A stretch of DNA of 64,000 nt, taken from Isoetes taiwanensis. Taxonomy: Eukaryota > Streptophyta > Lycopodiopsida > Isoetales > Isoetaceae. Shown here piece after piece: positions 5,157 to 57,021 of this stretch. The notes beneath the pieces were generated by a model that ran no database searches, was not told the DNA's origin, and was given only the letters and a program-made list of their open reading frames with translations. Each line of letters opens with the position of its first letter. The first letter of the stretch is position 1. The position numbers and the translations under genes were made by a program. Where the stretch lies: positions 6,695,710 through 6,759,709 of the forward strand of contig JAJEKV010000063.1 in the NCBI GenBank assembly GCA_021234155.1, written 5' to 3'.

Positions 5157-6043
5157 TCAGCTGACGTTGTTGTGTGAGCAGCTTAAACTTTCTTCCCCCC
5201 CCTGTGCCGCTTGCTTAAGGAGTTCCATCTGAGCGTGGAATTCTTCAGTGGTTAGCGTAGCGTCAGGAGCATCCTTCTCAATTTCCATTTCAACATCATC
5301 CTCCTTCTCATTTTCCTCGTCCTCCTTCTCAACTTCCTCGTCCTCCTTCTCAACTTCCTCGTCCTCCTTCTCGACATCCTTTTCTTGCTCTGATGGTAGC
5401 GGGTCCACAGGTTGAGCTTCTTGTGTCTCCAAGACAACAGAAGGTTCTCCATCCTTGAGGAGTAGCTGCGTAAACGTCGAGCTACCCTCGATCACATCTT
5501 GGGTGCACACTAATGTAGTGCCCGCCAAAGCATTAATGTTATCCTTCTTCTTTCTAAAGAAAGACATGTCCTTTGCTCCAAAACCTGCAACCTTTCTCAA
5601 ATGGTCTGTGAGAGAATCTTTAGACAACCGGAGAGTGGATTGCAACTCTTGCACCGTTTGTGCGGGGAATGGACAAGGAGGTGGAGGAGTGGACACTACA
5701 GCACTTGCCTTGGAGCCGCTTGCTTTCTTTTTACCCTCTGCTATTTTTTGCAATGCACGGGCTCTCGATTTCTTCTCATCCAGCATTACTTCGAGTTGAT
5801 CAAAAATCTGAGTAAGTTTAAGCTGCATATTCTCATCACTCTCAAAGGCAGTGGCTTTATACCCTTCGCACATAGCTGCACGGCTAAAGGATCCTCCAGA
5901 GAAGAAATCAAGGACACTGCATCCCTCAAGCATAAATTTCCGGACAAGGTATGTGCATGTCCTAGAATCTAATTGATGTGGCAAAAGGGCACCCGCGCCT
6001 CCTGCCACACTCTTGTCACCCCAAGGCCGATACAACCAGTATG
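5157..6043 (-). CDS. Exon with MTase motif I and acidic C-terminal tail
   Basis: The longest convincing frame of this gene. From the acceptor at 6044 it reads AYWLYRPWGDKSV, then GALLPHQLDSRTCTYLVRKF in the position of the HPTQKP helix of beta-class methyltransferases. Next comes GCSVLDFFSGGSFSRAAM, matching motif I (VLDPFxGSGTTxxAA), and AFESDEN at the acidic end of strand 2. A Lys/Ala-rich coiled segment, a Pro-rich loop and several near-identical EKEDEEV repeats follow. The stop is near 5157. The usual GxG is replaced by SGG, so catalysis is uncertain. The S-adenosylmethionine-binding fold is inferred from motif order and not proven. Confidence 0.6.
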
Positions 6044-6117
6044 CTGAAGCAAAGTACAACCGTTATAAGTGGCATTGAAAAGAAATAGACGCAGACCCTG
6101 GGTTTAAATCATGTTAC
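6044..6117 (-). other. 74-bp GT-AG intron
   Basis: The donor reads GCAG|GTAACA and the acceptor CTTCAG|CATACTGG on the minus strand. Splicing joins HECAA to AYWLYRPW in frame. This supports eukaryotic origin of the gene. Confidence 0.6.
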
Positions 6118-7194
6118 CTGCTGCGCACTCATGATCGAGGAGGTTCTTCTCTATGTCCTCCACTTCTTTCAAGTGCTGCGGGAACTTCGAATACTCTTGA
6201 GGATGGTCTGCATCGTTGAAGCATAGATTCAGGTCATTCATTGCAGGGGCAGCTGCTTGGTCTCTGGCCACATACATTACAAGAACGAGAGTCTGCAGCT
6301 CGCGAACACGAGAGGAAGGGTTTCTCTTTTTAGGATCATTGTACGCTCCCACCCATACACGACTACCCCCGTCTATAGTCTTCATGAATGGCGGACAAGC
6401 ATTCACTCAAACGATCTGGACTGATAAAGATCGTGATCCAATATAATTGCTGGTCCGTAAGCACACTGATCTGGTCCAAGAACTTCTGGTAATCCTCCAT
6501 GCTCCATTTCTTGATATTTCTGAAATCACATCCAACAAACCGAAAGCGAGGTATTGACCACATCAACTCCACATTCCCGGAGGACCGACACGGTAGCATT
6601 TGAATGATTTTGATCCCTCTTCCACCGGGTCCACGCAGATACTCATTAACCTTCGGGGATAAGAGCCTTTGGAAGGTTAAGCTTTTCCCTCCTTGCGGCT
6701 ATCAACCCAATCACCTACAAGTTGGCGAACATCAACATCAAATTCTCCGTGAATATAGGATGAATTTTTTCTCAAATCGGTCATGTTGTCAACATGAAGC
6801 TTTTTCACATCTTTGAGATATTTAAGGAGTGCACGCCGACATTGCCAATCTTCTTCACTTCGCTTCGCTGCCGGATTTTCATGACACGCCTTCGAAGATA
6901 ATTTTTTGGTGGTCTTTATGTACGTGGTGGCTGTCATAATCTCTGTCAAAAGTCTTTGCAGATCCATTGGATGCATGGACTTTAAAGGTCGGCACTTGTT
7001 ATTCGTGAACATTCTCAGGCGGTCCTTTACCACTATCGTCTCACCCAATTCATCTTTTAGCTGGTCTTCATAGAATAACTGAGCCACTTGTAGGCACATA
7101 TTCCAAGTTTAAATCTCATCCGGTACCACGAAGTAATCGTAGTCTCGCATGCTAAGCTTCTTCAATGTGCCTTTCGCTATATAGCGAGCCAATC
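6118..7194 (-). CDS. Middle exon of the ParB/MTase-like gene
   Basis: Translation runs from LARYIAKGTLKKLSMRDYDY through a Lys-rich helical region into LPKALIPEG, then WSIPRFRFVGCDF, WSMEDYQKFLDQ and ITIFISPDRLSE, and ends in LLDHECAA. The order and spacing match plus-strand 53210-54440, including WYKTCLDM aligned with DYQKFLDQ, so the two are homologous. The region would hold the first half (motif IV side) of the methyltransferase fold, but no DPPY or NPPY was seen. An in-frame TAA at 7109-7111 and the C5 tract at 6366-6370 break the frame. The acceptor is at 7195-7196. Confidence 0.5.
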
Positions 7195-7868
7195 CTGCAC
7201 AGCATAGTAAACTTAGCACATTTGAAATATACAGTCTCAAAATTTAGCAATGCACAAGCTAACATGCAATGCACATGAGGGCCAGCGCAAATTGGGCGCC
7301 CGCCCAATTTCATAGACAAGGAGATGCAATTTAACATGCTATATTCACATGGGGCCAACCCAAATTGGGCGCCCGCCCAATTTCATAGACAAGGAGATGC
7401 AATTTGACATGCTATATTCACATGGGGCCAACCCAAATTGGGCGCCCGCCCAATTTCATAGACAAGGAGATGCAATTTGACATGCTATATTCACATGGGG
7501 CCAACCCAAATTGGGCGCCCGCCCAATTTCATAGCCAAGGAGATGCAATTTAACATGCTATATTCACATGGGGCCAACCCAAATTGAAACCCGCCCAATT
7601 TCATACCCAAGCGGATGCAATTTAACATGCTATATTCACATGGGGCCAACCCAAATTGGGCGCCCGCCCAATTTCATACCCAAGCGGATGCAATTTAACA
7701 TGTGTCATGTAGTATCCTGGCATCTGAAATTGGGCGCCCGCCCAATTTCATAGCCAAGACGCTGCAAGAAACATGGGAGGCCTCCCAAATTGGGCGCCCG
7801 CCCAATTTGATGGCCAAGGGATTTATGAAAAAAAAAACAGACTGCATCCACAATTAGAAATGACTTAC
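7195..7868 (-). other. Intron carrying eight palindromes
   Basis: The donor ATTCA|GTAAGT lies at 7863-7869 and the acceptor TGCAG|GATTGG at 7194-7198 (minus strand). Most of the intron is a tandem array in which each unit holds one 22-bp palindrome (see 7289-7808). The equivalent intron of the paralogue, 52788-53128, also holds palindromes, of a different sequence. Confidence 0.6.
7289..7808. repeat. Regular array of eight palindromes, about 73-bp unit
   Basis: Palindromes begin at 7289, 7362, 7435, 7508, 7581, 7653, 7727 and 7787. Seven keep the form AAATTGGGC-GCCC-GCCCAATTT. The one at 7581 has lost its left GC arm. The spacers are repeats of one sequence (CATAGACAAGGAGATGCAAT and so on), so this is a minisatellite with a palindromic core, not a set of unique spacers. 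Confidence 0.9.
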
Positions 7869-8546
7869 TGAATATGCGCTATCTTGGGATAGTCCACGCT
7901 TTCCTTTCTTCGGCTTTCCATAGAATGCCCATTGATTCCTAAGCTGCTGTATTTGTTCGAAGTAGACATCCTGATGGATAGTATTCTTGGTGATATCGTT
8001 GCTCTCCTGGCTGACCTTCACATATTCAGTAGGAGTGAGGTTCCCTGCCAGCACACGACATTTTCTTTTGGCGTAGAAGAAAAAGATAAGATCTTTCAGA
8101 TGAGCCCTTTCTGCTGGCCATTCCAACGCCTGGTTGACAAGAATTTGGGCAACTGCAGTAGTGTGATTGCCATTTACAATCCAGAATTCTGCATTGTCCA
8201 AATCAGTGGCCTTCTTCCACTTCAGTGCACGTCCAGTGACTGGATCAAAGGGTACAACATCCGCACAAGGTGGATGCATCTGCACATTAATAAATGATTC
8301 ATAGAGTGTATCAACATGTTGCGGGTGATGACCTGCGGGTCATATTTGCGGTGCTTGATGCATTTTGAAGATATCCACCTCTATTTCGAATTCAACACCA
8401 AGAGGATAGATCCTTTCCCCATGCTTAATGTTGATCAATGCGGTTTGGGACAGCTCACGTTTGCTTTCTTGAGTCAACGCCCGCCCGGATGTCGAGCACT
8501 TCACAATTTGCCCCATCGTCTTCACGTGAGCACGTAACCGGTCCAC
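7869..8546 (-). CDS. ParB-like domain exon, module copy 1
   Basis: Read from 8546 downward, the frame gives RIYPLGVEFEIEVDIFKM, then, after one frame adjustment near 8330, NVQMHPPCADVVPFDP, LDNAEFWIVNGNHTTAVAQI, and KRKCRVLAGNLTPTEYVKVS. ParB/Srx-fold domains start with a parameter strand, a helix that selects a partner site, then a strand ending in a G(N/Q)H(R/T/S)xxA motif. The IVNGNHTTAVAQIL segment fits that motif and aligns with VVDGQHSVRAAQVL at 52597-52638. In bacteria this fold binds or cleaves CTP, ATP or DNA. The role here is unknown. Confidence 0.55.
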
Positions 8547-8648
8547 TCCCCCATCGGATGCACCTGATGTTGATGGTGGAGTAGGGTCTCTTCTTTTCTT
8601 AGGCGAGGAAGCTATTGCCTCGTGCCGACTTAACTTTATTCCTTGCTT

Positions 8649-9600: not shown

Positions 9601-10088
9601 AAATTGGGCGCCCAATTTTTGAGAAAGCGAAGGAGATTACAAGAAGAGAGAAGCCCGAGGGTCCCAAATTGGGCGCCCGCCCAATTTGCTGTGAGCAAAG
9701 GAGGTTACAAGAAGAGAGAGGCGGAAGGGTCCCAAATTGGGCGCCCAATTTGCTGAGCTTGAGAGGAGGTTACAAGAAGAGAGAGGCCGAGGGGTCCCAA
9801 ATTGGGCGCCAGCCCAATTTGCAGAAAGGAGGAGATTACAAGAAGAGAGAAGCTCGAGGGTCCAAAATTGGGCCCGCCCAATTTGCCAGAGCAGAGGAGG
9901 TTACAAGAAGAGAGAGGCCAGAGGGTCCCAAATTGGGCGCCCGCCCAATTTGCAGAGCAGAGGAGATTACAAGAAGAGAGAAGCAAGAGCAGAGAAATGG
10001 GCGCCCGCCCAATTTGCCCCAGCTTTGGGAGGTTAGAAAGCAGTAAGAAGGTTTAGAGCTTTGATAGATTTGGGCGCCCGCCCGATTT
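9601..10088. repeat. Palindrome array upstream of the ParB/MTase-like gene
   Basis: About eight palindromes at roughly 66-bp spacing (9601, 9666, 9734, 9799, 9865, 9930, 9995, 10068). Arms are AAATTGGGC/GCCCAATTT, and spacers vary from zero to four bases. The unit also repeats GGAGATTACAAGAAGAGAGA. Several open frames across the array are repeat artefacts and not genes. Confidence 0.9.
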
Positions 10089-13319: not shown

Positions 13320-13911
13320 AAATTGGGCGGGTGTTCAATTTCAACTCCTCAAAGTTACTAGACCAGGGAGCAAATTGGGCGCTCGCCCAATTTCAGCAGC
13401 TAAGAAACACTGCAACAGGGAGGAAATTGGGCGGCTGCCCAATTTCAACTCCTCAAAGTTACTATACCAGGGAGCAAATTGGGCGCTCGCCCAATTTCAG
13501 CAGCTAAGAAACACTGCAACAGGGTGGAAATAGGGCGGGTGCCCAATTTCAACTCCTCAAAGTTACTATACCAGGGAGCAAATTGGGCGCTCGCCCAATT
13601 TCAGCAGCTAAGAAACACTGCAACAGGGTGGAAATTGGGCGGCTGCCCAATTTCAACTTCTCAAAGTTACTAGACCAGGGAGCAAATTGGGCCAGCCCAA
13701 TTTGACCAGACTAAAACATCAACAGCGGGGGGAAATTGGGCGGCTGCCCAATTTCAACTCCTCGAAGTTACTAGACCAGGGAGCAAATTGGGCGCTCGCC
13801 CAATTTGAGCAGCTAAGAAACACTGCAACAGGGAGGAAATAGGGCGGGTGCCCAATTTCACCTTTCCAATTTACGTAACAACAGGGAGAAAATTGGGCGC
13901 CCGCCCAATTT
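13320..13911. repeat. Array of about twelve palindromes with alternating spacers
   Basis: Arms AAATTGGGC/GCCCAATTT recur about every 50 bp. Spacers alternate between a GCTC type and a GGCT or GGGT type, so the true tandem unit is about 100 bp with two palindromes. The array ends about 60 bp before a good splice acceptor at 13971-13973, placing it in an intron of the plus-strand gene. Confidence 0.9.
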
Positions 13912-13973: not shown

Positions 13974-16900
13974 GAGGTGTACCTATTCAAAGATGGTCGG
14001 GCAGTTGGCAAAGGGACCATGGGAGCTAGGGAGAGATGCCACTTTAAAGACATCCCAGATGGACTTGTGAGTGTGGGTGTTCTAGCTGTGTTTGAGGGGC
14101 ATCATGTTCTCTCTTGGCCTACTCCAGAAGCAAGTACCTTAGGTGAGGCATTGGGTTCCTTCATTCTCTGGAGGGAAAGTGATGTTCATGACTCGATGTC
14201 GGGGCGTGCGTCGGCGACAAGAAGACGGCCCGAGGGGAAGCAACGAGAGACACCATGTCGCTAACTAGGTACACACTACTGGAGACTGACTGCGAAATTT
14301 ATCACTCTTGTGCTGCCATCCCTGTAGCGAAGGGATTTATATCCTTCACTGGTCCAGACGATGCAGTATGTGACCAGTTCTTGGGTATGAAGACCGTAGG
14401 GGTGTCTGTTACTGGAAGGCTTTCCCCTCCGACAGAGGTGAACTTCCGGTGTCCGGCATGTTTGACAATACCTAAAGCGGGCATGCTTTTGAGGTGGAAT
14501 AATGATCTAGTTAGGGTTTGTGGGGTGAAGGTGTCGGAAATTTTAAGTCTTGGCCCAGATGGAACAAAGATGATCTGACGTCGAGCGGAGGGCAGCTTCG
14601 GAGATTGAAGCATCCGCGATCTGAGAAGCGTAAATACACCTTCCATTCTCGTCGGCCAAAGAAAGCATCAAAGCCTCCAAAGATAGATCGGCTAACAACC
14701 AATGAAGCCATCTTGAGGTATAGGAAGACCATGTGTTGCAAACAGAGATGTTGTGAGAAATTCAGTAGGGATCAAGCTATAAACATCTTGAAAGGATTTC
14801 TTTGCCATGAAATCGAAAGTGATAGCGGGACCACTTTTGTGTATGACATGTTAGGCAACAATATGAAGGGTAGAAGGGTTCATCGACTAGTCTTGCAAGG
14901 CATCGATTAATACGTGAGAGGGCTTGGTACCTTGGTCTTGGGATTTCAAAGTCGGGTATCTGAAGTGGAAGGTAGAATTCGCTCCCCTGCTTTCGAAAGG
15001 CCGAGCATGGCAATTCAGGCACTATGAAAGCACGTGCGGCCACCTTGGCCTCAGAGGCTGTTTTTTCCATGTTTGTGAAGGAAAATTGTGAGTCTTTACC
15101 TCACCATAGCAGGAGGAATGATGATGGGATTCGAGAAAACGTGAGGAAGTTGCCTGCTATGTTTACGAAGACATGCATTCTCGAAGAGGTCAACGCTGAA
15201 GTGATGGCTCTCACAGGCAAGAAGGTATCTGCGACAGGATTTCATAGGACGTGGAGACGTAGCTTCAAGGACGTCAGTATTGCTAAGAAGAATGCATTCT
15301 CCAAGTGTGACACTTGCGAGGTTATCCGCACGAAGCTGCTGAAGACCAAGGATGAGGCTGAGAGGAGAATATTGCATGATCAGAGAAGGGCACATAGACT
15401 AGAGCAGCAATCATGTCGCACCCCATCTTGGTCATGGAGACTGTTATCCCACGGCATCCTCGAGACTTTGTATGTATCATTCACGACAAAATGGATCAGG
15501 CAAAGACTATGATTCCAAAGTTGTTCGATTCCGTGAAGTCCCTTTGGAGACTAGATAAGCTAAAGACTTCATTGGCAGTGCACTTACCCACGCCATGGGA
15601 GAGGGTGCTATGGAAATTTTGCTTTGGATCTGTGGGTCGAGGCGACTCCAACTTCCATGTAGGTTCTTTGAATAGTATTTTGAAAAGGTTGGAGCTGCCT
15701 AATGAGTTTGCGAGGAGGCCATCTTGCCTTTGTCGATCCATCAGTCCCCAGTTGGGCGAGGGCCTTTACGTGACACCACTGCGCTAAGCGTCAAGTTGTC
15801 GGCTTTGTCATGCGGGAAGAGCATCCCGTTGCCATCCCTCAACCTGAGGGACCCTCATTGAAGCGTCTCCCTCGCAAATTCTTTGTTGCAACTAGACAAT
15901 GCATCCGGACAAAACAAAAATAGGTATGTATTCTCGTATCTTTCATACCTTGTATATCCGGGTGTTTTCGAGGAGATTGAGTTAGGGTTTATGATGCCTG
16001 GCCATACACATGGCGATATAGATGCTATGTTTGGAAATTTTCATCTACCTTGAAGAAAGCCGAAGTGCTAACCATGCCCGAGTTGTTGTATGAATTTCAT
16101 ACGTGCAATCTCAACACGCCAGTGCCATATGTTGTTCATAAGGTTCCAGATTGGAAAGGTTTCATAGAAGGGTATATCCCTGATGGGGAAGATAGATTGA
16201 CAGGTCACACTGAGCCTCTGACCTTTTTGTTTGCTATGAATGGTGGCCCGGCTGTCATGTACCATAAGGCTCGTCCTACGTTCGTGGATTGGCTACCTGC
16301 TGGTGGAATAAGAATGTGGAAAGAAGGAGAGGATGGAAAACCCCTAATGCCATCTGGAAATCCGAAGATGCTAGCACCTAAGAGCTCGGTGAAAGACATT
16401 GGTCAGCTCCGAAACAGTATCCATAAGCATATCCTCCATTGGGTCGCATGCTCGACGAACAAGAAGGGCACACCAGAGACGGCCAAATATACAGCACAAT
16501 TTACGGCGACAATTGAATATTGGATGGGACTCTTGGAGCATCTGAGTAACATCACCAACGTGGAAGGTCCTTACGAGGACTTTTGGCCGCGCACTAGGCA
16601 AGATAGACTTGACGTACCTGATGTGGTGGCTGTGGTGGAGCCAATTGCAACCATCACTCCTGCTTATGTTGGTCCATTGAAGGATAAGCCCGTACCAGAA
16701 TTCAATCCTTTCAAGGATTTGAAGAAGGGCATGTTTGTATTGGCGCCCTCTGATGATGTCTTGTGCCCAACATGGCTAGGGTATGCTACAGAAGAACCCC
16801 AAATGGATGATAAGAAAGACAACTTGAGACTATCCGAGGTCACTTGGTGGGAGCTGTCCACAGTAGGGAACCGGTGTTCCCGACCAACTATATCAATTGT

Positions 16901-17086
16901 TGGAAGAAGAGATGGAGGCCGACCAACGCTAGTGACCGCATTGAGATAGAGAGTATCGACTACGGCTTGGAGTCCTTGAATAAGAAGAAGCTACCAAACA
17001 CCGTCAAGATTCCCACACTTGTTGCGAGAAGCATATCGGCACTTGCGGGGATGTATGTTAGTGTTATCGAAGCGTCTCTTTTATAA
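13974..17086 (+). pseudogene. DUF8039/DUF7869-like transposase-type gene, module copy 1
   Basis: After the acceptor GGTGCAG|GAGGTG, the first segment reads EVYLFKDGRAVGKGTM, then HFKDIPDGLVSVGV and LGEALGSFILW, resembling the DUF8039 region of plant transposon proteins. Next come KRKYTFHSRRPKKASKPPK, a Cys pair segment FSKCDTCEVIRTKLLKTKDE (15297-15356), IIHDKMDQAKTMIPKL (15476-15523), LDNASGQNKN, FMMPGHTHGDIDAMFGN (about 15990-16040), then KKAEVLTMPELLYEF through WKKRWRP. The order HDKMDQ...LDN...GHTHxDID is that of DUF7869 proteins, thought to be DDE-type transposases. Frame changes (for example near 16040) and stops indicate decay or sequence error. It aligns with 45122-48010 on the opposite strand. 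Confidence 0.65.
16050..16949 (+). CDS. C-terminal open frame of the DUF7869-like gene
   Basis: Longest intact frame of this gene, about 299 codons. It starts right after the GHTHGDID motif but in another frame. It carries VPDWKGFIEGYIPDGEDRLT, which matches VADWKSFVEGYLLDGKDQLT in the 45870-46433 frame. It continues through FNPFKDLKKGMFVL, matching WDPFEDIKEGYFVL near 45470. The true continuation then switches frame to CWKKRWRPTNASD and KLPNTVKIP (16890-17030), again matched in the other copy. No initiation signal is expected at 16050 because it is an internal fragment. Confidence 0.6.
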   Translation: MKKAEVLTMPELLYEFHTCNLNTPVPYVVHKVPDWKGFIEGYIPDGEDRLTGHTEPLTFLFAMNGGPAVMYHKARPTFVDWLPAGGIRMWKEGEDGKPLMPSGNPKMLAPKSSVKDIGQLRNSIHKHILHWVACSTNKKGTPETAKYTAQFTATIEYWMGLLEHLSNITNVEGPYEDFWPRTRQDRLDVPDVVAVVEPIATITPAYVGPLKDKPVPEFNPFKDLKKGMFVLAPSDDVLCPTWLGYATEEPQMDDKKDNLRLSEVTWWELSTVGNRCSRPTISIVGRRDGGRPTLVTALR

Positions 17087-17139
17087 AAAGTCCACAATTC
17101 AAGGTATTGTCCATATTTAATGAAACTGTGCTTAACCCA

Positions 17140-44921: not shown

Positions 44922-45121
44922 CAATAAGTCGTATTTAATTAAAGTGGGACAAATCTTGAATTTTGGGACTCGGACTGAAAATGGGACTCACACACCATAA
45001 AAGAAATTTCTGAATTGATTGCTTGAATAGAATTACACATGACACACATAGAATTGGGTTACTTGTTTTCCTCATAAATTTTACAAACCACTAGTTGAGA
45101 AAGTTTTCAAACTTCTCAATA

Positions 45122-48010
45122 TTATGCACCCTCATACAATGATATAGCATGGAGGTTGCTCATGGCCTTGTCCATCTCCTTTCTTGGGATCTTGTGTGTG
45201 TTGTCTTTTGCAATGTGAGAACTTGGATATGACCATACCACACACTCCACCAATTCCCTCCTTTGAGGGTCAAGATAATTTGGCCTCCACTTCTTCTCCC
45301 AAAGAGTCAGCAGTATTGCTCCTTCAAGTTGCCCTTCTTGTGCCTCCCAATGGGCTCCCAATATTGAATTTGGAATCCGTGACGCAACTCCTCTTCATCG
45401 GGCATAGTGGTGGTGACATCGAGAGTGCCACCCCTAACCATATTGGACAGTCCTCATCATCGCCTTACTAGCACAAAGTATCCTTCCTTGATGTCCTCAA
45501 AGGGATCCCACTCGTGAAGATCAAACCACTTCGGCTTTGAGGCCTTACTTCCCACAAACCACTTGGGACCCAAGTGAGCATTCTTAGACGTGCTTGCACC
45601 TTGAGAACCCTCCCATCTTGACTCGGCAAGAACCCGCTCTTAGCTCCCTCCCACATGGTCGCTTCGGTTTCTAAGCATGTCACAACTTTCTCCCCAAAGA
45701 CTTGATTAGGGAGTCCATTTGATTTTTCTTAAGAGTGGAGGTGTGCTTTCCATTTCAACATCATCCCAAAGGCGTTATGTAATCCTTGATGCCCTTCACC
45801 AGCCATAGAGTCTTTGACTGCCTTGAAGGGAGAGGTAGTGGTTTTGGCTGCCCTTTAGGAATGAGAACTTCACCAAAGCAAAGCACCCCTTTGCCACAAC
45901 TCGATACCTTGTACAGGCATCCACAACTTGTCACCTGGTCTCCACTTATATTGCATGATTGGTATTCCATCCCTAACCCAAAACTTGAATTGAAGTGGCT
46001 TTGTGTGTCCTGTCAACTGGTCCTTGCCATCTAGCAAGTATCCTTCTACAAATGATTTCCAATCTGCAACCTCATCCATCAAGAAAGCCATTGGGTTGGG
46101 GTCAATGCAGCTCTCAAACACATCCATTAGTTCAGGGAGAGTGGTCACGTTTTCTCTCTTGAGCTTGGTGGAGAAAGTTCCAAAGAATCCATCTATATCA
46201 TCATGCGTATGCCCAACCATCATGAATCCCACTTTCACAACTTTGAATACTCCCACTACTGTCAAGTATGACATTGCCCCAAACATCCATCTATTCTTGT
46301 TTTCTTTCCAACAGTTGTCCAACCGAACACATAGCTCCTCGTAGTGATTTCTCAAGTAAGGGAAATCATCCCAAGTCCTCCTTGATTCACTAGACACCTT
46401 GGATGTGAGCTTTTTATCCGCCTTTGGTAACAAAGCGGTTGATCATCCATCAAAGCCTCAAAAATGGGTCTTTGAAGGGGAATACCTCCTCCCTTCTATC
46501 GATCCTTTCTCTAGTGTTCTCAAGCACTTGAAAATAGAGCTCACATGGAAGTTTGGATCATCTCTCCATAGATCAAGCACAAAATGACCATATGTTCCAG
46601 CCCATGACCATGTGTTAATACACCCGCCCGGACTTACTTTCATCCGAAAAAGCGTTTTGACAACGCTTGGGTAAAGGATCTAGCTTTGGCAAGAAAGTCT
46701 TGTGTTGGTCCATCTTATCATGAATTATACACAAAAATTTGTCCTACAGCATCTCGAAAAATGTTCTCCACCGCCAATACAACCGCTCTACATGATATTT
46801 GGTCCCTTTGGTGATCTCGCAAATTGCTCCCTAATTGCCATTCTTTCTTTCTCTATTGCAGTTGATGCAAGTGTATCCTTGAGTTGAATGCAAGTGTTGC
46901 ACTTTGAGAATGGCATGTGTTGTAGGACACTCACGTCCCAGAAGTGAGTGCTCCATAACTTGCTGAAATGTGATTGAGAAAGAGGCCTACCTCCAAAGTA
47001 GTTTCTAGGATGGAGTTGACCTCCTTAAGGCACTCCTTTTGGATATAGTGTTGTGGCAACACTCTTTGCACCACTACGCACACCGTGCTCGCTCACCTTC
47101 GACTTGTGGGGCATAGATTGAGACATGTATCTCACAAAGCTCTCAAGACCTGCAATGGCCTTTAGAGTATTTGCTCTAGGTTTCAAAGTGAGTGCATTAC
47201 CATGTTGGAACAAAGTGTGCCCTTTTCTAACCTGCTCCCCAAAGATTCAGAAAATGAAGACTTGCTCACCCCAAAGAATCCATCTCAATGCTCTCATACA
47301 TACCTTCATTCCCCTCAATTGATATAGCAACCGGCCCCCGTGTTTTCATCATAGCTGGAATTCCTACACAAGGAGTAAATGAAATTAATCCTATCTTTTT
47401 GAAGCTGTCCAATGTATTGGGACCTTATCCAAGACGAGGTCATCCACATTGTAATGCACTTGTGCAATCTAGGTTGCAACACTCTTGTCCCCTAATTGCC
47501 TCCGTGTTTTTTTGGTTGGTGCCATACTTTCCATCCTTTCTAAATATTTGTCACTTCTAGGCCTCTTGGGCACCTTTGGCTGCCTTTTATGAAAGACATA
47601 GCGTCTCTTCCTTGTGATCAAAGGATGCTCATCGACCACCAAATCTTCCACATGGCCTTGGGTGGGCCTTGGGGTGTGTAGTTCAAGAGGGCATTCTAGA
47701 GTATCACCATTCTTGTGTGTAATAAATCTAATTGGCCATCTCAAACCCGAGCTTGGGACTCCGGCAGCCCCGAGCACACAATGCAATCACTAGAGCTTCC
47801 CGGACATGATAGTATCAACTTCGATAAGAAGCTTCACAATGCCAACTCCAAGATGTTCATCTCCCCTCTCATCATTCACACTATCAAATGGATCAACTGC
47901 AGTTATTATGCCCTCTGCAAATACTGCCTGCAGTTTGCAAGGGTGCAACAAAAGGCAACCCATCCTCCTCCATTGGAGCCTAGGGCAATGGCCTCCTTTG
48001 GACTTCCCCT
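45122..48010 (-). pseudogene. DUF7869-like transposase-type gene, module copy 2
   Basis: Collinear with 14255-17086 on the other strand. From about 47990 downward: LQAVFAEGIITAVDPFDSVN, then RRYVFHKRQPKVPKRPRSD (47580-47640), CIIHDKMDQHKTFLPKL (about 46690-46740), DPNFHVSSIF, LDNCWKENKNRWMFGAMSYL, VGFMMVGHTHDDIDGFFG, ADWKSFVEGYLLDGKDQLT, WDPFEDIKEGYFVL and LWEKKWRPNYLDPQ. The three acidic motifs HDKMDQ, LDN and GHTHDDID are candidates for the catalytic triad of a DDE-like transposase. Frame breaks and stops are common between 46640 and 47470, so this copy is probably not autonomous as read. Confidence 0.65.
45870..46433 (-). CDS. Longest intact frame of the DUF7869-like gene, catalytic core
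   Basis: About 187 codons reading RRTWDDFPYLRNHYEELCVR, then RLDNCWKENKNRWMFGAMSY, FKVVKVGFMMVGHTHDDID, and LPELMDVFESCIDPNPM. It carries the second (LDN) and third (GHTHDDID) acidic motifs of the family together in one frame. The corresponding part of the other copy (15880-16240) has GHTHGDID instead and a frame change just after it. The family role as a transposase is inferred from motif arrangement and from the terminal repeats of the element. Confidence 0.65.
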   Translation of the reverse strand: MLPKADKKLTSKVSSESRRTWDDFPYLRNHYEELCVRLDNCWKENKNRWMFGAMSYLTVVGVFKVVKVGFMMVGHTHDDIDGFFGTFSTKLKRENVTTLPELMDVFESCIDPNPMAFLMDEVADWKSFVEGYLLDGKDQLTGHTKPLQFKFWVRDGIPIMQYKWRPGDKLWMPVQGIELWQRGALLW

Positions 48011-48608
48011 CGGCTCCATTTTACTCATCTCACATGCTCCCTGAATGAAAAAGCTCACATTAAAACCATATAGCCCCAAACACCACAAATATGACCATAT
48101 GAACCATATAAAACCATACAAACATATTAAATATAACCATATTAAATCACACAACCATATTAACTAAAATCATATAACCATATTAAAGCATACAACCACA
48201 CGCATTCTAAACCATATGTGAACATTGTAACCATATATACCATTGATACTATTCAACCATTGAAACCTTATTAAATACATAAGACAACATATATAAACAT
48301 ATAACCAACCCTTTCATATCTTGGCATGGCCACGTGGCGCCTCTTCAGAGGTCTGAAAACCGCGGGCCACGTCCAAGAATCCGCGACCGCCACGTCATGG
48401 AGGGCATGGCCCACACGTGACAGAAGTATATTATTGCACTTTTACGAGGTTCGAGGGTGCAGCCAGAATTAACTGCACCCTCTTCCTCTCCCCCCGACCA
48501 TTCTTCCTCCCCTGTTTTCTCTGATCACTCTTCGAGCTCCCTGTTTCCTTAGGCGCCCGCTTTTACCGTCAAAGCGATCGATCAAACCGATTCGATTCCA
48601 GCCATCTT
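48011..48608. promoter_or_regulatory. Shared divergent promoter region with G-boxes
   Basis: About 600 bp between the two gene starts. Two CACGTG G-boxes (48331-48336, 48414-48419) and two further CCACGT cores lie within 100 bp. The part toward the minus-strand gene is AT-rich, with many ACCATAT phrases (48060-48310). G-boxes are bound by plant bZIP and bHLH factors. That they act in both directions here is inference. Confidence 0.45.
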
Positions 48609-48890
48609 ATGACAATGCTTGGTCGACTGGGGGCAGACGCCCAAATTGAAGTTCTCGCCAAGTTCATTGTTCGAGCTTCTGCTTTGAAGAAAGTGAGGCC
48701 CTTTTTAGTGCTGCTTTTTAGTTTTCTGTAAGTCTTTTAGTGCATTTTTTCTTATATTCTGTTGTTAGAGGCTCTTATTAATCCCTGATACAATTTACAG
48801 CCCGACAAATCCTTATTCACGCTTTGTCAACGACTATACCCACATGGAATCGAAGTCGGAAGCCTCCTCCTCATCCAGCAAATCTTCCAG
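48609..48890 (+). CDS. Possible first two exons of the ParB/MTase-like gene
   Basis: ATG at 48609 opens MTMLGRLGADAQIEVLAKFI plus VRASALKK up to a GTGAGG donor at 48693. After an ACAG acceptor, exon 48801-48890 continues in phase as PDKSLFTLCQRLYPHGIEVG and ends at a GTATGT donor. Phase and splice signals are consistent. The link to the downstream exons 2.5 kb away is not proven. A different frame of the second exon (MESKSEASSSSSKSS) is also possible. Confidence 0.4.
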
Positions 48891-49329
48891 GTATGTTTTT
48901 GTAATATCATACCCTTTTTTAATCTCATTTTTCTGTACTGTTCTCCACTTTTCTCTGTACTGTTCTCCACTTTTCTCTGTTTTCTCATTAATCTTAATAA
49001 TCTTTGTATTGTTTTCTGTTTTTTGTTATCTTTTTCTTGCTTGTGGTTGAATTGAATACATTGTACATGCACAAGTGAGAATAGTGGTTATAGTAGCAAG
49101 CAACCGAGAGAGAAATCATCAGAGACTGGTGTTAGGAAGTAAGATATTGCAGAGCATTAACAGAAAATAACTAGGAATGTCTTTCTCCCAAAGAAGAATT
49201 CGAAATAGGAATTGCTTCACAGAATCTCCATTTCTAACTCACAGCAAATCCACTGCAGGAGACATGCAGAAGGGAGTGGCGAGTTGAGAATACTTCAGCT
49301 TGCCAACAGTCAGGAAAGTACAGGCCTTC

Positions 49330-50300
49330 TTCTCGACTCGCGAGTCGAGAACTTCTCGACTTCATGGCGGCAGAAGAGGGAGTGTACACTGGATGCTATG
49401 GCAGGTTGAGGGATTCTCGACTTCATGACCGGGATTGCACAAATACCCAATGTCTTCACATTCTTTAGAACCTGCTTCAGCCTTCTCGACTTCGTGAGTC
49501 GAGAATGTGATACCACTGCCAATGGCTCTTTGTGCGGTCGCGGAGTGCCTCCACCCGGTCGAGCCACTCTCCTTCGAACCATGCTCGCCGAATATTGCGA
49601 AGAGGGGCTCGGGTTCTGGGTGGAGGCCTCGCGGCACAACAACTGAGCTGGCGGCTTTCTCGACTTCGTGAGTCGAGAAAACGCGGAAACTCGATTACTT
49701 TCGAGCTGGCTTTGCAGGCGGTCTCAACCACTCTCCTTCTATCTTCCTCGGACATTCGCGAGGGAAGTGGTTTTGGTAATCTCCGGGCCAACTCTTAGCA
49801 ACCCAATTCTCACGTGTGTGGTGGCGTTGGCCTCTACCCAATCAAAGACCGTCTCCTTTGAACCATCTTAGTAGAATATTGCGAAGGGATGGGCTACGAT
49901 TGGGTGGAGGCCTCGGCGGCTAACCTGAAGTTGCTGGCTGCTTTCTTGACTCCGTGAGTCGAAAGCGCGAGGCTCTAGTGCACTCTAGAGCTGGCTGCGC
50001 GGGCGATCTTAAACACTCTCTTCTATCTTCCTCGGACATTGCGAAGGGAAGTGTTTTTCTTGTCTGGGGCCAACTCTTAGCAACCCAATTCTCCTATGTG
50101 TGGTCGCGAGAATGCATGCATTCCACCGAGCTTCTTTGTATGCATTCTCGGCTCGCATGATGGGGAATGCCTTACCCAACCCGGCACTCCATGTGTACTA
50201 ACGGAGTTACGGATGGTTAAAGGCATTCTCGACTTTTGCGAAAAAGAATGTAGACAGAAACCAAGCATTCTCACTTCGCAAGTCGAGAATCCCGCCCGAC
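49330..50300. repeat. Palindromes of the TTCTCGAC family, upstream cluster
   Basis: A perfect 22-bp palindrome (TTCTCGACTCG followed by its reverse complement) lies at 49330-49351. Variants with a TTCG, TTCGT or CCGT centre lie near 49483, 49657, 49942 and 50268, with half-sites between. This cluster occupies the same place relative to the gene as the 9601-10088 array in module copy 1. Confidence 0.8.
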
Positions 50301-50600
50301 CAATTCTCACAGTATGCGGTAGCGGTGGCCTCGACCCAGTCAGAGTCACTCTCCTTCGAACCATCTTCGTCCGAATAGTGCGAAGGGGAGGGGCTCGGAC
50401 TGGGTGGAGGCCTCTACAACTAATCACAGGGGAAACCCAGAGGAAGCCAAGGCTTGCATTCTCTACAAGTACTGCACTTTCTATTCTCTTTTTTTTAGTC
50501 CCAAGTGCCTCTAGCCTGTCTGAGCCACTCTCCTTCGAACCATCTTCCTCGAATATTGCGAAGAGGAGTGGTTCGGACAGGGTGGAGGCCCCTCCGACTA
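49545..50600. repeat. Four diverged 90-bp foldback repeats
   Basis: Blocks at about 49545-49635, 49828-49920, 50318-50415 and 50505-50600 each begin near GGCCTCNACCC and end near GGGTGGAGGCC. A second inner dyad, CTCTCCTTCGAACCAT opposed to GCGAAGAGGAG, is also present. Each could form a long imperfect hairpin. Intervening DNA (CCAACTCTTAGCAACCCAAT) is repeated too, so this is a larger, decayed tandem array. Confidence 0.75.
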
Positions 50601-51473
50601 ACTACAAGAGGATGCATTTGAACCGCATCTCCTGGGCCTTAGTCCTAGCCTGATCTATGTACAACATTCCAAGTAAACAGTCCATGGAAAAACAGACCTA
50701 TAACGGAACTGTTCTTTACCCCCGATCCAATGTTTCCTTGCCGAGCATCTCTCAACCTAGAGAGTAAATCATCTCGGCTGCGAGAAATGCTGGACAAGGA
50801 AACACTGAATCCGTCGAGCTTATCAGCAGTTCCATTATTTAAACACATACGGCATGTTCTACAAGCGAAATAACATAGGCATCTCTGAAACTCACCTCTT
50901 CACGCAGTAATTCCTTGGGCCACTGTATCACGGATCCCGCAGCCTCACCCAGAGTCTTTGCTTCTTCGTTTGTCTCTTCAAGAGTGTATTCGTGATCTAT
51001 TACTGTATCATCGCTGCGATTCTCGCGTATCCCCTTTCCATGGCGCCGCAGTGTAGAGTTCCGGTGTCTGGCAGCTCCTCTCCGCTTCCTACCTTAGCTC
51101 CGTGCTCATCGATCAATTCAACTGCTTGCAATAGGACGCGCGGTCAGGAAAAACACACATATGCAAGGCGCTATTAGCAGCTTACCGCGTCGCGGCGCCA
51201 TTCCGGAAGTCGCTAACAGTCGATGATCCCCTCCGACCTCGAGTTCCCCAATGCCGCAGGGAAGATAAACTACGCTCCACTCACTTAGTCCCTTGATGTG
51301 ATTCAATTTCGAAATAGTGTTTGGGCGGGCTAAAGCCGACCGTGCTGTACCCTTAGCCCGCTTTTTTTCATAAATGATTGCATGTCCTTAACTTCAAATT
51401 AAAGAACACGCCCGATCTTTTTTACATGCAGTCCTAAAACTCACAACGCGCGGAGGAAACTTAATTTACAGAG
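50601..51473. other. Stretch between the arrays and recognisable exons
   Basis: No recognised coding segment, although small exons could be present. Base composition stays GC-richer than the DNA outside the transposon. Confidence 0.35.
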
Positions 51474-52363
51474 TCGTCCGAAGAGGATGAGAGGGCATAT
51501 AGAAATGACTCCGTCCAAGAAGCGAGGCGCCGGAGGGGATGCTTACGCAAAAAGAAGAAGAAGAAGACAAACACCCCAGGTGAGCTCTGAGGTTTTTCTT
51601 TTGTCGGAATACCTTAACTGATCCATCCGTTCTTCTTGCAGCATTCACCTCGGACTCACTGGTGATCACTGGCCGAACTCCATTCTTCGTCATCGAGGGA
51701 CTGGAGACAGAGCTTCTTGAAACAGCGGCAGATTCTTGGTGGTATGTCGAGGTATCGACAAGTGGGAAGGAGAAAGATCTGTTTACACCAAAGGGACAAG
51801 AAGAGCTCCCGAGACAAGTACAAGAAAATCGGTGTTGTGCTCTCCGTCTCTCGCCCGGTCGATTCAAGCATTTAACACTACATGTCGAGGACTGCCAGAA
51901 GAGTAAGTTCTATCGCACCAAAAAATTAGCAGTTTCAAATTATTCTCACTCTTCCATGAGCAAGGCTAAGGGCACCGAAAAAAGGCCGGCGCCTTTAAAT
52001 TGTCAGAACCTTGGGTGGAAGGATCTGGAAGGGATGAAGGAGGCCGGAACCCTAACATCCAGGGAGCTTGGTATGGAGATTTCCAGAGTCAGGGAAAAAC
52101 TGTTCAATACGGGGAGCTTCACTTCTACTGTGCTGAAGACTCTACAACACTCTGCAGTGGGGAATGTTGTGGTTCATACACAAAAAGTCCACCAAAAACA
52201 AAGATGGGGATGATGACACCACACGGGGAGGAGTCGGATGACGAAGGAGACGAAAGATATGGTCGACTCCCCAAACCTCGATCCGGATGATCGATCGATC
52301 AGGATTTCTCAGAGAGGGGCACAGAAAATGGAGCGTCTAGCTCAGTATTATCCGTTGGGAATA

Positions 52364-52787
52364 TCACACAAGCTGCTGCTGGACATTAGACGGCTGAAGG
52401 TTTGCACGGGAGATGCCGTCTTGTTCAACCACAGGGAATTTAATCCAGCACACATGCTGGAGATTCTGAACCTGATGGTGCGACATCCTGTTGCAGATCC
52501 AATGCCTGCGGATGTCATACCTTTTAGCAGTCGACAATGAGTTGTTCACCGAAGTCCGAGGAAGATCTGAAGGGAAAAGACGTCCGGTTCTGGGTTGTAG
52601 ACGGTCAGCATTCAGTTAGGGCGGCTCAAGTATTGCAGACGGAGAAGGAGGTGCCGCAAAGGATCAAGGATAGATATGCCAAGCGAGAGTGCAGAGTTCT
52701 TTCGGCGGAGACGCGCCCGAACCGAACCGCCAGCGGCGGTAGCCACTGCCCGAACACAATAGCGGCGGAAAGTGCCGCCTACGTAAG
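52364..52787 (+). CDS. ParB-like domain exon, module copy 2
   Basis: Reads ISHKLLLDIRRLKVCTGDAV, FNPAHMLEILNLMV, PMPADVIPFSS, then after a frame change KGKDVRFWVVDGQHSVRAAQ and KRECRVLSAETRPN, ending at an AAG|GTAAAT donor. The strand-helix-strand order with a GQHSVRAA motif suits the ParB/sulfiredoxin fold. It matches the copy at 7869-8546 in motif order, and the DGQHS here is closer to the bacterial DGQHR consensus than the NGNHT there. Function in plants is not known. Confidence 0.55.
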
Positions 52788-53128
52788 GTAAATAACTCTC
52801 GGAATCTTTCCATTTGGACTTCGCGAAGTCGAGAAAGCCCCCATCCTAACATTTGCCGATTATCATCGGGTTTCGACTTCGCGAGTCGAAAGCCCTGAGT
52901 AACACGTAAAGTCAAAGGATGTGGAGCTTTTTCGACTTCGCGAAGTCGAGAAAACCCTTAGCCAAAGGCGTGGGTAATGCAGAAAATCAAAGGATGCGCG
53001 AGCTTTCGACTTCGCGAGTCGAGAAACCCGAGAAGTAAAAGAAAATTAGACATTCAAGGGACTTTCTCGACTCGCGAGTCGAGAAAACCCGGGGCTACTA
53101 TTTACTGTTTATTCCTGGGTGTTTGTAG
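52788..53128 (+). other. Intron with five palindromes of the TTCTCGAC family
   Basis: The donor AAG|GTAAAT is at 52788. The acceptor is TTTGTAG at 53122-53128, with a later alternative near 53166. Palindromes lie near 52816, 52871, 52929, 53003 and 53064 (the last a perfect 22-mer). Centres are TCGCGA, with or without one or two extra bases. Confidence 0.6.
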
Positions 53129-53587
53129 ATACTTTCATGCTCTGACATTGGTACATTGTCTGAATGCAGCCCTTATCCTGACCAGGATCATACACGCTAG
53201 GCAACAAAGGAAAGCATTGGGTTGTCCTCGGCGTCCCTAAAGGAAAACAGGGGCTCCCTGGATAAGTGGAAGACCTTTGAGAAACTATGCAGATATGTTC
53301 TGCTGGAGGGACAGGAAGATGACGAGGGAGAGGAAGAAGAGGAGAAGAAGAAGAGAACACCAAGGAAAGGCAGGGAGTCTCTCTCAGACCAATACGACCT
53401 CATTCTTAGCACTGAGGCGGTCTGGGAGAAATGGACCACATATGGGCTCAATGGACAAGAGGCAAGTCAAGGACAAGAACGGAGAATTTCCAAGCGAGGC
53501 CCGACCCCAAGTTGTTTGACAAGCAGTTCATGAAGAGGATACGGGGGCCTCACGGACAAAGAAACGCTTGACCTACAAGGCAAAATC

Positions 53588-54766
53588 TTGGAGGGAACAA
53601 TCCTGCTGAGGAAGACCAGGAGTTCTAAATTGCAGGACGCAAAGGATTATGCCACAGTCCTAAAGCGACAGCGTGCGTTAGAAGAAGGCATCACGGAGTT
53701 CTGCAACGTTGCATCTAATGAATACCATGATTTTGATTATTACAAGGAAAAGGCTGCCCTTGATGAGGAAGACATGAAGGAATTGAACCGTCTATGTCAA
53801 CCCTACATCAACACCAAGCTGAAGCGTAACGTCAAAACCCTTCCTTTCCCTGAACGTGCTATGGCAATTCGAAAGGAAGCTTGGATTCGGGGTGGTCCCA
53901 TTTAAGGCAGACGATAGCTCCCCCCCATTTCTGGTTACTTTGGGACACAAGGGATTTGGTGGTGCAGGCGGCACTGGACCCGTGGCACTATTTGCCATCA
54001 ATATGATCGAAGACCCCACCCTTTTTTATGACAAAGCTGACATAGAGCAGTGGTACAAGACGTGTCTGGACATGACCGACCTGGATACTTTCAGTTTCCT
54101 TGTCTTTTGCATGCCGGGCAATCAAACAACCGGCTTGTCTCCCAATGGGCAAACCGATATTAACTTCACCAACAAGATCATGCACTCCATATACGAACTT
54201 GATCATGAGTGCAGACTTGGCTTGCCGAAGGCACCAAGCTTTGCCAACATAGTTTTGGTTTTGATTTCAAGATCGGCGGTCGACCTGGATAAGTGGTGGT
54301 CTAGCGAGCATCATTATCTCGACAAGTTCATGATCTCTCAAGAGCAGATGGAACCCCTGGAAGGGGGGGCAGGTTTATGGAGGATGTTCCATCGATGGAC
54401 AAGGTCGGCCAAGGATGGTGCGACCGGTCCTATACATAGAATTCCTATCCGCCAAGAGTTATCAAGTACTTCATAACCAAATTTGGTCGAGGAAGATCAA
54501 ATTGTATGCGAGTGGTACATGAATGGCCTGTTCTCTCAGGGGGCTATGCTGTTTGGAATGAAACCTATATCCGTGGTTGGAAATAAGGACATGGTTGAAA
54601 CCATTCAGTCATACCTGGATCTGCTTCATGAGCATTTCAAGGGGAGGAAGACAAATGGAAGCAGTAAAGACGACGAGGACGAGGGAGACAAACCTGACGG
54701 AGACGAGGATGTCGAAGGATTGGACCAGAATGCTGCCGAAAACATTATTGAAAACCTGAGATTGAG
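53588..54766 (+). CDS. Methyltransferase-like exon, module copy 2
   Basis: Contains LKRQRALEEGITEFCNVASN, GHKGFGGAGGTGPVALFAIN, DIEQWYKTCLDMTDLDTFSF, LGLPKAPSFANIVLVLISRS, and the counterpart of motif I, VCEWYMNGLFSQGAMLFGMK (54505-54564). Aligned without gaps to VLDFFSGGSFSRAAMCEGYK of copy 1, the key Asp is Glu, FSGG is YMNG, and the acidic residue ending strand 2 is lost (AFESDE becomes SVVGNK). The fold is probably kept but S-adenosylmethionine binding is doubtful. Frame breaks lie near 53890 and 54440-54483. Confidence 0.5.
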
Positions 54767-54905
54767 GTGAGTTTACTTTGCTCTAACGGTGTTTCTCGAC
54801 TCGCGAGTCGAGAAAACTCGTTTCCTTTCAATACCTTTTCTTGTCATTCTCGACTCGCGAGTCGAGAAAACTCGTTTCCTTTCTGACAGATGTCATCATT
54901 TCAGG
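54767..54905 (+). other. Intron with two perfect palindromes
   Basis: Donor GAG|GTGAGT at 54767. Perfect 22-bp palindromes lie at 54793-54814 and 54847-54868. The acceptor is TTTCAG at 54900-54905 or GACAG at 54890. It joins the methyltransferase-like and FCP1-like exons. Confidence 0.5.
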
Positions 54906-55740
54906 GAATTCCAGCTCAACGAGTCCGGATCATTGTCAATGGATTCCAACGGTTCACGTCGCGAGGAGAATGAGAATGAAAATCCAGAGCAAGACAGACG
55001 CTCCGCGGCCGGAAAAGAACACGAAAAGTTAATGATCCCATTTGGATCCCGATGAACCGGAAATATGGTCAGAGCCAAACTCCAACTGGGATCCAGCTGG
55101 TCCCACCAAGCTTGTAATATTTGACGTCAATGGAGTATTAGCTGCAGTATACCACGACAAAGACGTCCCCGAGATTAACACCTCGCAGATCCCAGTGAAA
55201 ACAGAGCATAAAATAGTGTATCCGAGGCCCAGAGCTAAGGAAATTATTGATCGTGCCCGCACGGATTCGGTGGGCATATGGTCTTGTATGGCAAAGAAAA
55301 ATATTGTCAATGTTCTTGGTGTTCTCGGCATTTCAGTTTTGAAGTTCAAGTTCGTTTGGGGAAACGAAAGGGTCGAGCATGTGAAGGACCTCGATCCAGC
55401 CATCACAAAGGGAAGCCTATAATGGTGAAAAGGCTGGGCCGGTGTTTATGAGCAATTCCGGGACTTTGGCAAACACAACACGCTGATCATAGACTTACTC
55501 CGCCTACAAGTGCTATCATAACGCAAAAATACAATCATTGCTAAGCCATATCGACGACCAAGAATATGAGACAGATAGGTGGTTGTCCTTCGGACTCTGC
55601 CTCTGTCTTGGCGGAATCCCTCTTTGCCATTCTTGTCGCCCGATGTGCTTACGAACTATCCGAGCCTCACGGCCCGATCCGTAGAGAGCAAGATCATGAA
55701 AGCTATGGACGACAAATACTTTGGTGAACAAGAAGAGTGA
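54906..55740 (+). CDS. FCP1-like HAD-family phosphatase segment
   Basis: After a Ser/Glu-rich leader, it reads PTKLVIFDVNGVLAAVYHD, then IVYPRPRAKEIIDRART and SVGIWSCMAKKNIVNVLGVL. Later come KFVWGNERVEHVKDL and FGKHNTLIID. These match the FCP1/NIF homology fold: motif 1 DxNG, the RP and GIWS segment, and the DD-S-YK region. The catalytic DxDx(T/V) has Asn in place of the second Asp, as in a subset of plant FCP1-like proteins, so activity is uncertain. FCP1-type enzymes dephosphorylate the RNA polymerase II C-terminal domain. Frame changes occur near 55030, 55420 and 55490-55620. It has no counterpart in module copy 1. Confidence 0.7.
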
Positions 55741-55845
55741 CCCCTTTTCGGATAGTCAAATTGTGTGAATATTGTAATCGAACGTGAACACATGTATTGA
55801 CCATTTTGTAATGAATATACTTGTATATTGAGTTTTTAAATGCCT

Positions 55846-56091
55846 TTCTCGACTCACGAGTCGAAAGGCATGCTTGTCGTGTTGATGAAATGCTTGTACA
55901 ATCTATTATGATAATGCTTGTACATTGGGTTTCCTGGGACTTTCTCGACTCGCGAGTCGAGAAAGGCATGCTAGTTGTCTCGTTGACAAAAGCATTTGTA
56001 TGCTTCCGTGTGTGATTGGATGCAACCATATTCTAATGAGAATGGTTGTACTTTGACTTTTATGGGCCTTTCTCATTTCGAAGTCGAGAAA
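55846..56091. repeat. Downstream palindromes of the TTCTCGAC family
   Basis: A variant at 55846-55867, a perfect 22-mer at 55942-55963 and a weaker copy at 56069-56091 lie past the gene stop. A half-site occurs near 56848. Confidence 0.8.
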
Positions 56092-56177
56092 GACACTACT
56101 TCCCACGCCATTGGATGCAGGTTGTATGGAATGAATGTTCTCCGTTGTAATTTGATTTCAACGTTCTTTTCTACGTT

Positions 56178-56700
56178 TTGACTAATGACACCGTAATTGT
56201 TAATCATACTCTCCTTGCTCCAGGTGGTTCAGGCACAGATCCGACACCAGCACAGATCCCGCTCAGGCATCACAGAGACCGCTCCAGGCGGCACGGATCC
56301 CGCTCAAAGGCGGAAGAAATACCGCTTACAGCACGAGATCCGGTCATGCTACACTCTTGCCCTACTTTGGGACAAGGTTGCTTTCGCGAATTGAGAGGTT
56401 GCTTTCGCTACACCACGGGAATAAAGAACGGCCGAAGAACAAAGAGAAAGTCCAGGAAGCTCAAGGCATATTGCAAGCATTGCATAACATCCACGGAGGT
56501 TGGGGAAGGAGCATATTCGATGAAAGGTCATGGGGGCGAGTGGAGAAGTCGTGACGGACCGGCCCGGCGGTAGCTCGAGAGGCACCTCCACGTGAGGCAT
56601 TCCACACTCTTCGGTTGCCCCCAAGGCTTACGAGACGGCATGAAGAAGCGCCACAAGTTAATCCCCCCTAAGGTGGACCACCTACCAAGATGATGTAATC
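56178..56700 (+). other. Basic open frames near the transposon right end
   Basis: Two overlapping frames (56178-56573 and 56357-56554) encode Arg/Lys-rich peptides such as KNGRRTKRKSRKLKAYCKHC, with no recognised domain. The DNA repeats CAGATCCCGCTCAGGC-like phrases, so the frames may reflect repeats. They could be a further exon of the plus-strand gene. Confidence 0.3.
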
Positions 56701-57021
56701 AGAGGAGTGGCGAAGACCGCCATGGTCTCTGCGTCCGATGTAAAATACATTGTATCTGTTCAATTTATTAATAAAAATTCTTTTTCAACTACATCTTTGG
56801 TTTCAAACTTTAATGAATTTCCTTTGTTTCAGTTGCATTGTTTTTGTTCTCGACTCGCGAACCTGGGAAAACTGCAGCACAGCTCGGATTCAGAGTTTTA
56901 TTCAAAAATTCGAATTAAGGATAGTTTTCGGGTCGGGGTGCTACTTTTTATGTAAATTAACCGGGTTCCGAAAAAAAATGGGAATGGAATGAGTCCCACT
57001 TTAATTAAATACGACTTCAAT

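Follow-up and report, generated by a model that had tools for sequence, protein, structure and literature searches.

Private palindromic repeats in two plant DNA transposons that carry a candidate ParB-like gene

A window of 64,000 nucleotides from the nuclear genome of Isoetes taiwanensis (contig JAJEKV010000063.1, positions 6,695,710 to 6,759,709 of the forward strand; coordinates below count from the first letter of the window) holds two distantly related transposable elements, element 1 and element 2, in each of which a DUF7869 transposase gene stands divergent to a candidate ParB-like gene and the noncoding DNA carries many copies of an inverted repeat private to that element. Element 1 is 12,092 bp long and ends in terminal inverted repeats of 25 bp, the left one (+) reading AAGTCGTATTTAATTAAAGTGGGAC and the right one (-) being its exact reverse complement; these repeats, identical at 25 of 25 positions, and the CAAT directly outside both of them had been recognised in an earlier reading made from the letters alone (the sequence-only reading). 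By simple arithmetic, about 4e-6 perfect inverted pairs of this length would be expected by chance in 64 kb. The GGGACT repeats reported just inside the ends hold for the left, where there are two copies (44965 and 44983), but the right has a single one, as AGTCCC at 56992, overlapping the terminal repeat. G+C content is about 0.41-0.50 over 44-58 kb as against about 0.35-0.42 in most of the DNA around the element. The description of element 1 as apparently complete fits its intact termini but not its genes, since the transposase gene has at least 18 frameshifts and the ParB gene several frame changes; element 1 is a decayed but structurally intact DNA transposon in a plant nuclear genome.

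The minus-strand gene of element 1 matches DUF7869 (PF25273) at E=1.1e-35 in a Pfam scan, and the HDKMDQ, LDN and GHTHDDID motifs by which it had been assigned to this family are all present. Frameshift alignment with three relatives gives 18-23 frameshifts and 3-8 stops; because this transposase is dead, any recent move of element 1 would need transposase in trans. Giant families often have pseudogenised transposase genes, implying mobilisation in trans (PMC12477816). The structure model of a relative finds its best likeness among RNase H-like transposases, with moderate scores, consistent with a DDD triad set on such a fold in the DUF7869 transposase. Taken by itself, Foldseek returned nothing at E 0.001, its first row being Tn5 at 0.023 and chaperonins appearing in the rows after it. 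In a review of plant transposons, Sola elements are described as having a DDD transposase, a 4-bp target-site duplication, terminal inverted repeats of 11-1124 bp and sizes of mostly 2-9 kb with some >15 kb, and they occur in a moss (PMC10741241). Because the DDD residues, the 4-bp duplication, the length of the terminal repeats and the size all fit, the last lying above the bulk of Sola elements and inside their reported range, element 1 most likely belongs to the Sola superfamily as a Sola1-like cut-and-paste transposon, an assignment made by features and by the published parallel of Sola1-1_Ec32 and not by comparison with a Sola1 protein. KDZ and EnSpm, suggested by the Ectocarpus paper, were set aside, as the 4-bp duplication and the DDD enzyme fit Sola, with no dedicated KDZ or EnSpm test made; in a Pfam scan of seven transposase relatives, one (P0002) weakly matches TNP1/EN/SPM (E = 0.023, below cut-off), and three relatives bear the precomputed label PF26133. 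A scan of prokaryote genome contigs yielded one transposase relative, on contig L001 (4.3 kb) of a cyanobacterial bin, where tblastn places it in an open frame of 963 amino acids (stop to stop) at 547-3438. This contig is probably a eukaryotic contaminant foreign to the bin; it contains neither a long-range inverted repeat of 12 exact bp nor a recurring family of palindromes with 8-bp arms.

On the plus strand of element 1, the GQHSVRAA motif noted earlier is in place within a broken gene whose start may lie further upstream, near 51584. By definition, ParB/sulfiredoxin-like proteins have a G-x-[HR]-[RS] box in the N-terminal ParB fold, for which GQHSVRAA in element 1 and GNHTTAVA in element 2 are candidates. 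The methyltransferase-like region proposed downstream does contain one SPPF, in the coding frame, and a stretch resembling the S-adenosylmethionine (SAM)-binding motif I that aligns to element 2, but it has no significant family match, and both the ParB and the methyltransferase assignments of the accessory gene are weak ones drawn from sequence. Nor does element 1 consist of exactly two divergent genes, as had been stated: both are broken, and a third, coding-like open reading frame follows at 55036-55419, which matches no solved structure at E 1 and may represent either another exon or part of a host gene that the element has captured.

The sequence-only reading was supported in proposing a DNA transposon that carries one gene of transposase-like and one of ParB-like type, but it missed both the second element and the element-specific palindromes. 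Element 2, a distant relative with the same divergent DUF7869/ParB layout, reaches to about 17133. The same transposase relatives that match element 1 (P0001-P0014, tblastn) also match its plus strand, with 12-13 frameshifts and one stop by frameshift alignment, and its ParB-like gene runs in the opposite direction from 8648 to 5157 (-). The ParB parts of the two elements align at E=1.9e-9 by tblastn, scoring 129 where the best of 500 shuffles reached 59. For the right end of element 2 against the left end of element 1, the local alignment score of 19 was reached in 0 of 2000 shuffles, and a repeat shared with 27577-27833 starts at 17141, just past that right end. The left end was not found within the window and may lie outside it; solitary inverted repeats at 967 and 1113 suggest that element 2, or a second fragment, reaches far to the left (1-17133). 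Between 10900 and 12750, element 2 consists for about 1.8 kb of TTTCCC-type repeats, rich in pyrimidines and low in complexity, with long meaningless open reading frames.

Closer inspection of the noncoding DNA identifies 13 copies in element 1 (seven exact in both arms) of TCTCGACT followed after 4-6 bases by AGTCGAGA, and about 30 copies in element 2 (25 exact) of AAATTGGGC followed after 0-4 bases by GCCCAATTT; the two motifs are mutually unrelated. A motif-free scan for arms of 9 exact bases with a spacer of 0-8 was controlled by 100 random sequences matched in dinucleotide composition. All 24 hits in element 1 belong to a single motif family (random mean 0.57, maximum 3), and 54 of the 55 hits in element 2 share a family of their own (random mean 0.75, maximum 4), as against 6 hits in the other 34.8 kb of the window (random mean 2.14, maximum 8); these hits overlap one another and are not independent copies. 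Within the window, 24 of the 25 exact single half-sites of the element 1 motif fall in element 1 and 56 of the 57 of the element 2 motif in element 2, so that each family here has a private motif repeated in its noncoding DNA, the arrangement by which VANC-type systems are recognised. None of the counted copies of either element lies inside the listed coding stretches. In both elements, copies occupy the space separating the divergent genes, the presumed intron that divides the ParB-like from the downstream part, and the DNA beyond the downstream part; the edges of this intron are GTAAGT and TGTGCAG in element 2, with less clear splice sites in element 1.

Among element 1 copies the arms share 91-95% pairwise identity, a partly circular figure in that the arms chose the copies, and the surroundings share 29-30%, near the level of unrelated DNA; since these surroundings are unalike, the copies are not pieces of a longer repeat. 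Most element 2 copies sit in three tandem arrays with differing units (73, 65 and 52/104 bp), and the arms are better conserved than the rest of the unit in all 4 of 4 unit types (p<=0.0018, column permutation), the types being delimited by position and not by arm quality.

Table 1. Coordinates of the features of elements 1 and 2 in the window.
Feature	Position	Strand	Remarks
Element 1, CAAT left target-site duplication	44922..44925	no strand	
Element 1, left terminal inverted repeat, 25 bp	44926..44950	+	identical to right end
Element 1, DUF7869 transposase remnant	45125..48050	-	PF25273 E=1.1e-35; tblastn of P0001-P0014; frameshift alignment
Element 1, inverted repeats, 4 copies (49331, 49484, 49658, 49944)	49331..49964		between divergent genes
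Element 1, ParB-like coding part, FWVVDGQHSVRAAQVL	52217..52722	+	split between two frames; tblastn to element 2
Element 1, inverted repeats, 5 copies (52813, 52871, 52930, 53004, 53065)	52813..53084		presumed ParB/downstream intron
Element 1, downstream coding part, weakly methyltransferase-like	53201..54770	+	several changes of frame; SPPF at 53919; stretch like motif I near 54500
Element 1, inverted repeats, 2 copies (54794, 54848)	54794..54867		directly after GTGAGT splice-donor-like site
Element 1, coding-like open reading frame, possible FCP1/NIF phosphatase fragment	55036..55419	+	PF03031 E=0.038, below curated cut-off
Element 1, inverted repeats, 2 copies (55847, 55943)	55847..55962		
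Element 1, right terminal inverted repeat, 25 bp	56993..57017	-	inverted match to left end
Element 1, CAAT right target-site duplication	57018..57021	no strand	
Element 2, solitary inverted repeat	5085..5106		3' of ParB gene; two others at 967, 1113
Element 2, downstream coding part	5157..7194	-	SAM-binding-like motif I VLDFFSGGSFSRAA; phrog_498 DNA methyltransferase E=0.015
Element 2, presumed intron, GTAAGT ... TGTGCAG	7195..7868	-	contains 73-bp repeat array
Element 2, inverted repeats, 73-bp tandem array and one extra copy	7289..7808		
Element 2, ParB-like exon, FWIVNGNHTTAVAQIL	7869..8648	-	one in-frame stop
Element 2, inverted repeats, 65-bp tandem array and copies just past it	9601..10088		between divergent genes
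Element 2, inverted repeats, 52/104-bp tandem array	13320..13911		directly upstream of transposase
Element 2, DUF7869 transposase remnant	13977..17041	+	tblastn; one piece matches PF25273 below cut-off (E=4.3e-4)
Element 2, right terminal region	17076..17133	-	resembles element 1 left end; exact end uncertain

Left out of the copy counts were, for the element 1 motif, the rows at 53012 (overlapping a true copy), 50269 (4 mismatches) and 56848 (5 mismatches, a half-site) and, outside the element, those at 8587, 22346 and 62057 (4 mismatches each); for the element 2 motif, those at 7347, 7420, 7493, 7566 and 7638 (shifted chance matches) and, outside, that at 30945 (3 mismatches). For element 2, arm and flank identity was compared over 26 of 31 rows; the five left out had masked copies of the 73-bp array.

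Elsewhere in the window, dirigent-like gene copies at 17834-18540, 28195-28895 and 36264-36951, in direct and inverted orientation, form a small host gene cluster, with one dirigent-like open reading frame matching PF03018 at E = 3.7e-4, below the curated cut-off. A PPR-like open reading frame was recognised by eye; together with the dirigent-like one it indicates that the host is probably a land plant. Furthermore, 20726-22741 and 58803-63328 hold long inverted duplicated segments that are about 91-96% identical and about 40 kb apart.

The pairing of a transposase with a ParB-methyltransferase-like gene had been taken for an undescribed group, which does not stand: Sola1-1_Ec32 of the brown alga Ectocarpus, 21.5 kb long, already combines an accessory gene with ParB-like and DNA-methyltransferase domains (a predicted protein of 1104 amino acids) with a transposase on the opposite strand (PMC12477816). 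Compared by description only, element 1 is a close match to this Sola-1 element of >10 kb in having a ParB-like, possibly methyltransferase-like accessory gene opposite the transposase, and it differs in host, in length and in its private inverted repeats, which the available text on Sola1-1_Ec32 does not mention (PMC12477816). What ParB-methyltransferase genes do in the transposons of algae is still an open guess in print (PMC12477816). Fanzor1-bearing Sola2 elements are likewise Sola transposons with an added gene and 4-bp duplications, their cargo being Fanzor1 rather than ParB and their hosts amoebozoan slime moulds (PMC3627910). Among the matches listed in our literature search on ParB with transposons, algae, palindromes and anti-silencing, PMC12477816 was the only one with a ParB-bearing eukaryotic transposon, the others being judged from titles and the starts of abstracts, and neither these matches nor the text consulted mentions private palindromic sites. 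The novelty here lies in a second, distantly related element of the same layout and in palindromes that are private to each family yet similarly placed in both elements.

This arrangement recalls that of VANDAL, a Mutator-type element. Within their own VANDAL family, VANC proteins bind short motifs that lie in introns and in noncoding DNA between genes and at the termini, the motifs often lie in tandem repeats and differ between related families, and VANC causes loss of DNA methylation (PMC5735166; PMC10398659). VANDAL21/VANC of Arabidopsis thus resembles the elements here in its element-encoded protein, family-private motif in noncoding DNA and tandem repeats; it differs in that VANC proteins carry DUF1985 and DUF287 and are not ParB-like, that the VANC motif YAGTATTAY is not palindromic, and that VANC binding and DNA methylation loss were shown experimentally, whereas here we infer them (PMC5735166). 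Pfam scans of 8, 6 and 7 pieces gave no match to DUF1985 or DUF287, and we therefore describe the proposed system as working like VANC, not as being one. VirB, a ParB-family member, is a bacterial transcription regulator that is not known to belong to a transposon or to have a methyltransferase part. It offers a further likeness as a regulator that offsets transcriptional silencing (PMC10653881).

Given that the VANC arrangement is established, we propose that the ParB-like protein becomes concentrated at the sites of its own element, which it then marks or frees from silencing. In this Sola-type element, the DDD transposase (DUF7869) would cut at the 25-bp ends and give rise to the 4-bp duplication, and the divergent accessory gene would encode a protein that is ParB-like and, perhaps, methyltransferase-like towards its C-terminus. 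The ParB-like domain would recognise the element-specific inverted repeat in introns, the divergent promoter region and 3' noncoding DNA, the repeated sites would gather the protein on its own DNA, and the gathered protein would either mark the element (by adenine or N4-cytosine methylation, given an active enzyme) or keep host silencing off. Protein and sites would diverge together, each family answering only to its own protein; the unrelated motifs, combined with a similar layout and diverged ParB-like proteins in two families, look like a co-evolving protein and site. We give this reading a probability of roughly one half. Its fuller form is more tentative: a Sola-type self-recognition cassette in which a ParB-like/methyltransferase-like protein and family palindromes might mark the element's own DNA against silencing, as a convergent counterpart of VANC whose specificities switch together.

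Several points weaken this reading. The ParB stretch of element 1 has weak profile matches (phrog_1033, ParB-like, 0.016; DUF6551, which we take to be ParB-like, 0.051; TIGR03187 DGQHR, 0.07) and matches two PHROGs of unknown function better than the ParB-like one, that of element 2 has no ParB family match in the profile libraries, and the model of the predicted ParB fold was unusable. No intact homologue of the ParB gene was found in protein databases at E 0.001 (7752 candidates) or 0.1 (7995 candidates), and a PDB sequence search, a phage search with the element 2 ParB exon and viral-contig scans returned nothing useful. No family of Pfam, PHROGs, NCBIfam or PADLOC, the last of which gave no match on 5 pieces, significantly matches the methyltransferase-like region of element 1. 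Scans for methyltransferase motif IV, [DNS]PP[YFW], over three frames of each broken copy found the single SPPF of element 1 and none in element 2; the motif I candidate is good in element 2 and degenerate in element 1. Aligned over their whole length, the downstream parts of the two elements are not significantly similar (26 of 500 shuffles reach the score); for the motif-I stretch alone, a restriction chosen afterwards, 0 of 500 do. The variable spacing of the arms, finally, argues for flexible or independent half-sites.

A rather unlikely alternative, though one to be taken seriously, is an ordinary Sola-type transposon with an accessory gene, in which the repeats are sites for transposase or host factors, or enhancers, unrelated to the ParB-like protein. 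Plant DNA transposons commonly have repeated subterminal binding sites, and it is we who infer the link between protein and motif. Against this, a common set of relatives can be aligned with both transposases along most of their length, yet the motifs are unrelated, and the paired copies of element 1 lie 4.4 kb from its left end and >1 kb from its right end, not near the ends, with a single unpaired half-site (56848) about 170 bp inside the right end. A role as terminal transposase-binding repeats is disfavoured by this position. It is considerably less probable that the palindromes are functionless selfish or structurally spread hairpin repeats in the noncoding parts of old elements, as might be suggested by their palindromic form, the purely noncoding location of the counted copies and the tandem arrays holding most of those in element 2; all but one of the exact half-sites of each motif are confined to their own element, a free mobile hairpin would be expected in the remaining 34.8 kb too, and conservation in the arms exceeds that in the remainder of the repeat unit.

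We give very little credence to a partition-like system, in which ParB on parS-like sites would aid the persistence or clustering of an extrachromosomal or replicating form of the element: a ParB-like motif does co-occur with palindromic sites, and parS sites are palindromic, but we know of no extrachromosomal stage of Sola elements, and a six-frame Walker-A-type pattern scan over both elements recognised no ParA-like ATPase, its one match falling within a low-complexity repeat of element 2 (no ParA profile search was run over all open reading frames). Equally improbable are RNA hairpins in introns and leaders, acting in splicing or through small RNAs rather than as DNA sites, since the complementary arms, variable loop and location of several copies in presumed introns are set against conservation of sequence besides pairing, a spacer of zero at two sites (9601 and 9734) and many intergenic sites.

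Collectively, the private palindromes provide a concrete, testable target for the function of ParB-methyltransferase genes, and do so in two families at once. If the proposed working is true, these elements would represent a second, independently evolved system of sequence-specific self-recognition in plant-lineage transposons, built from bacterial-type parts, and would offer a natural reader/writer pair for programmable DNA marking.

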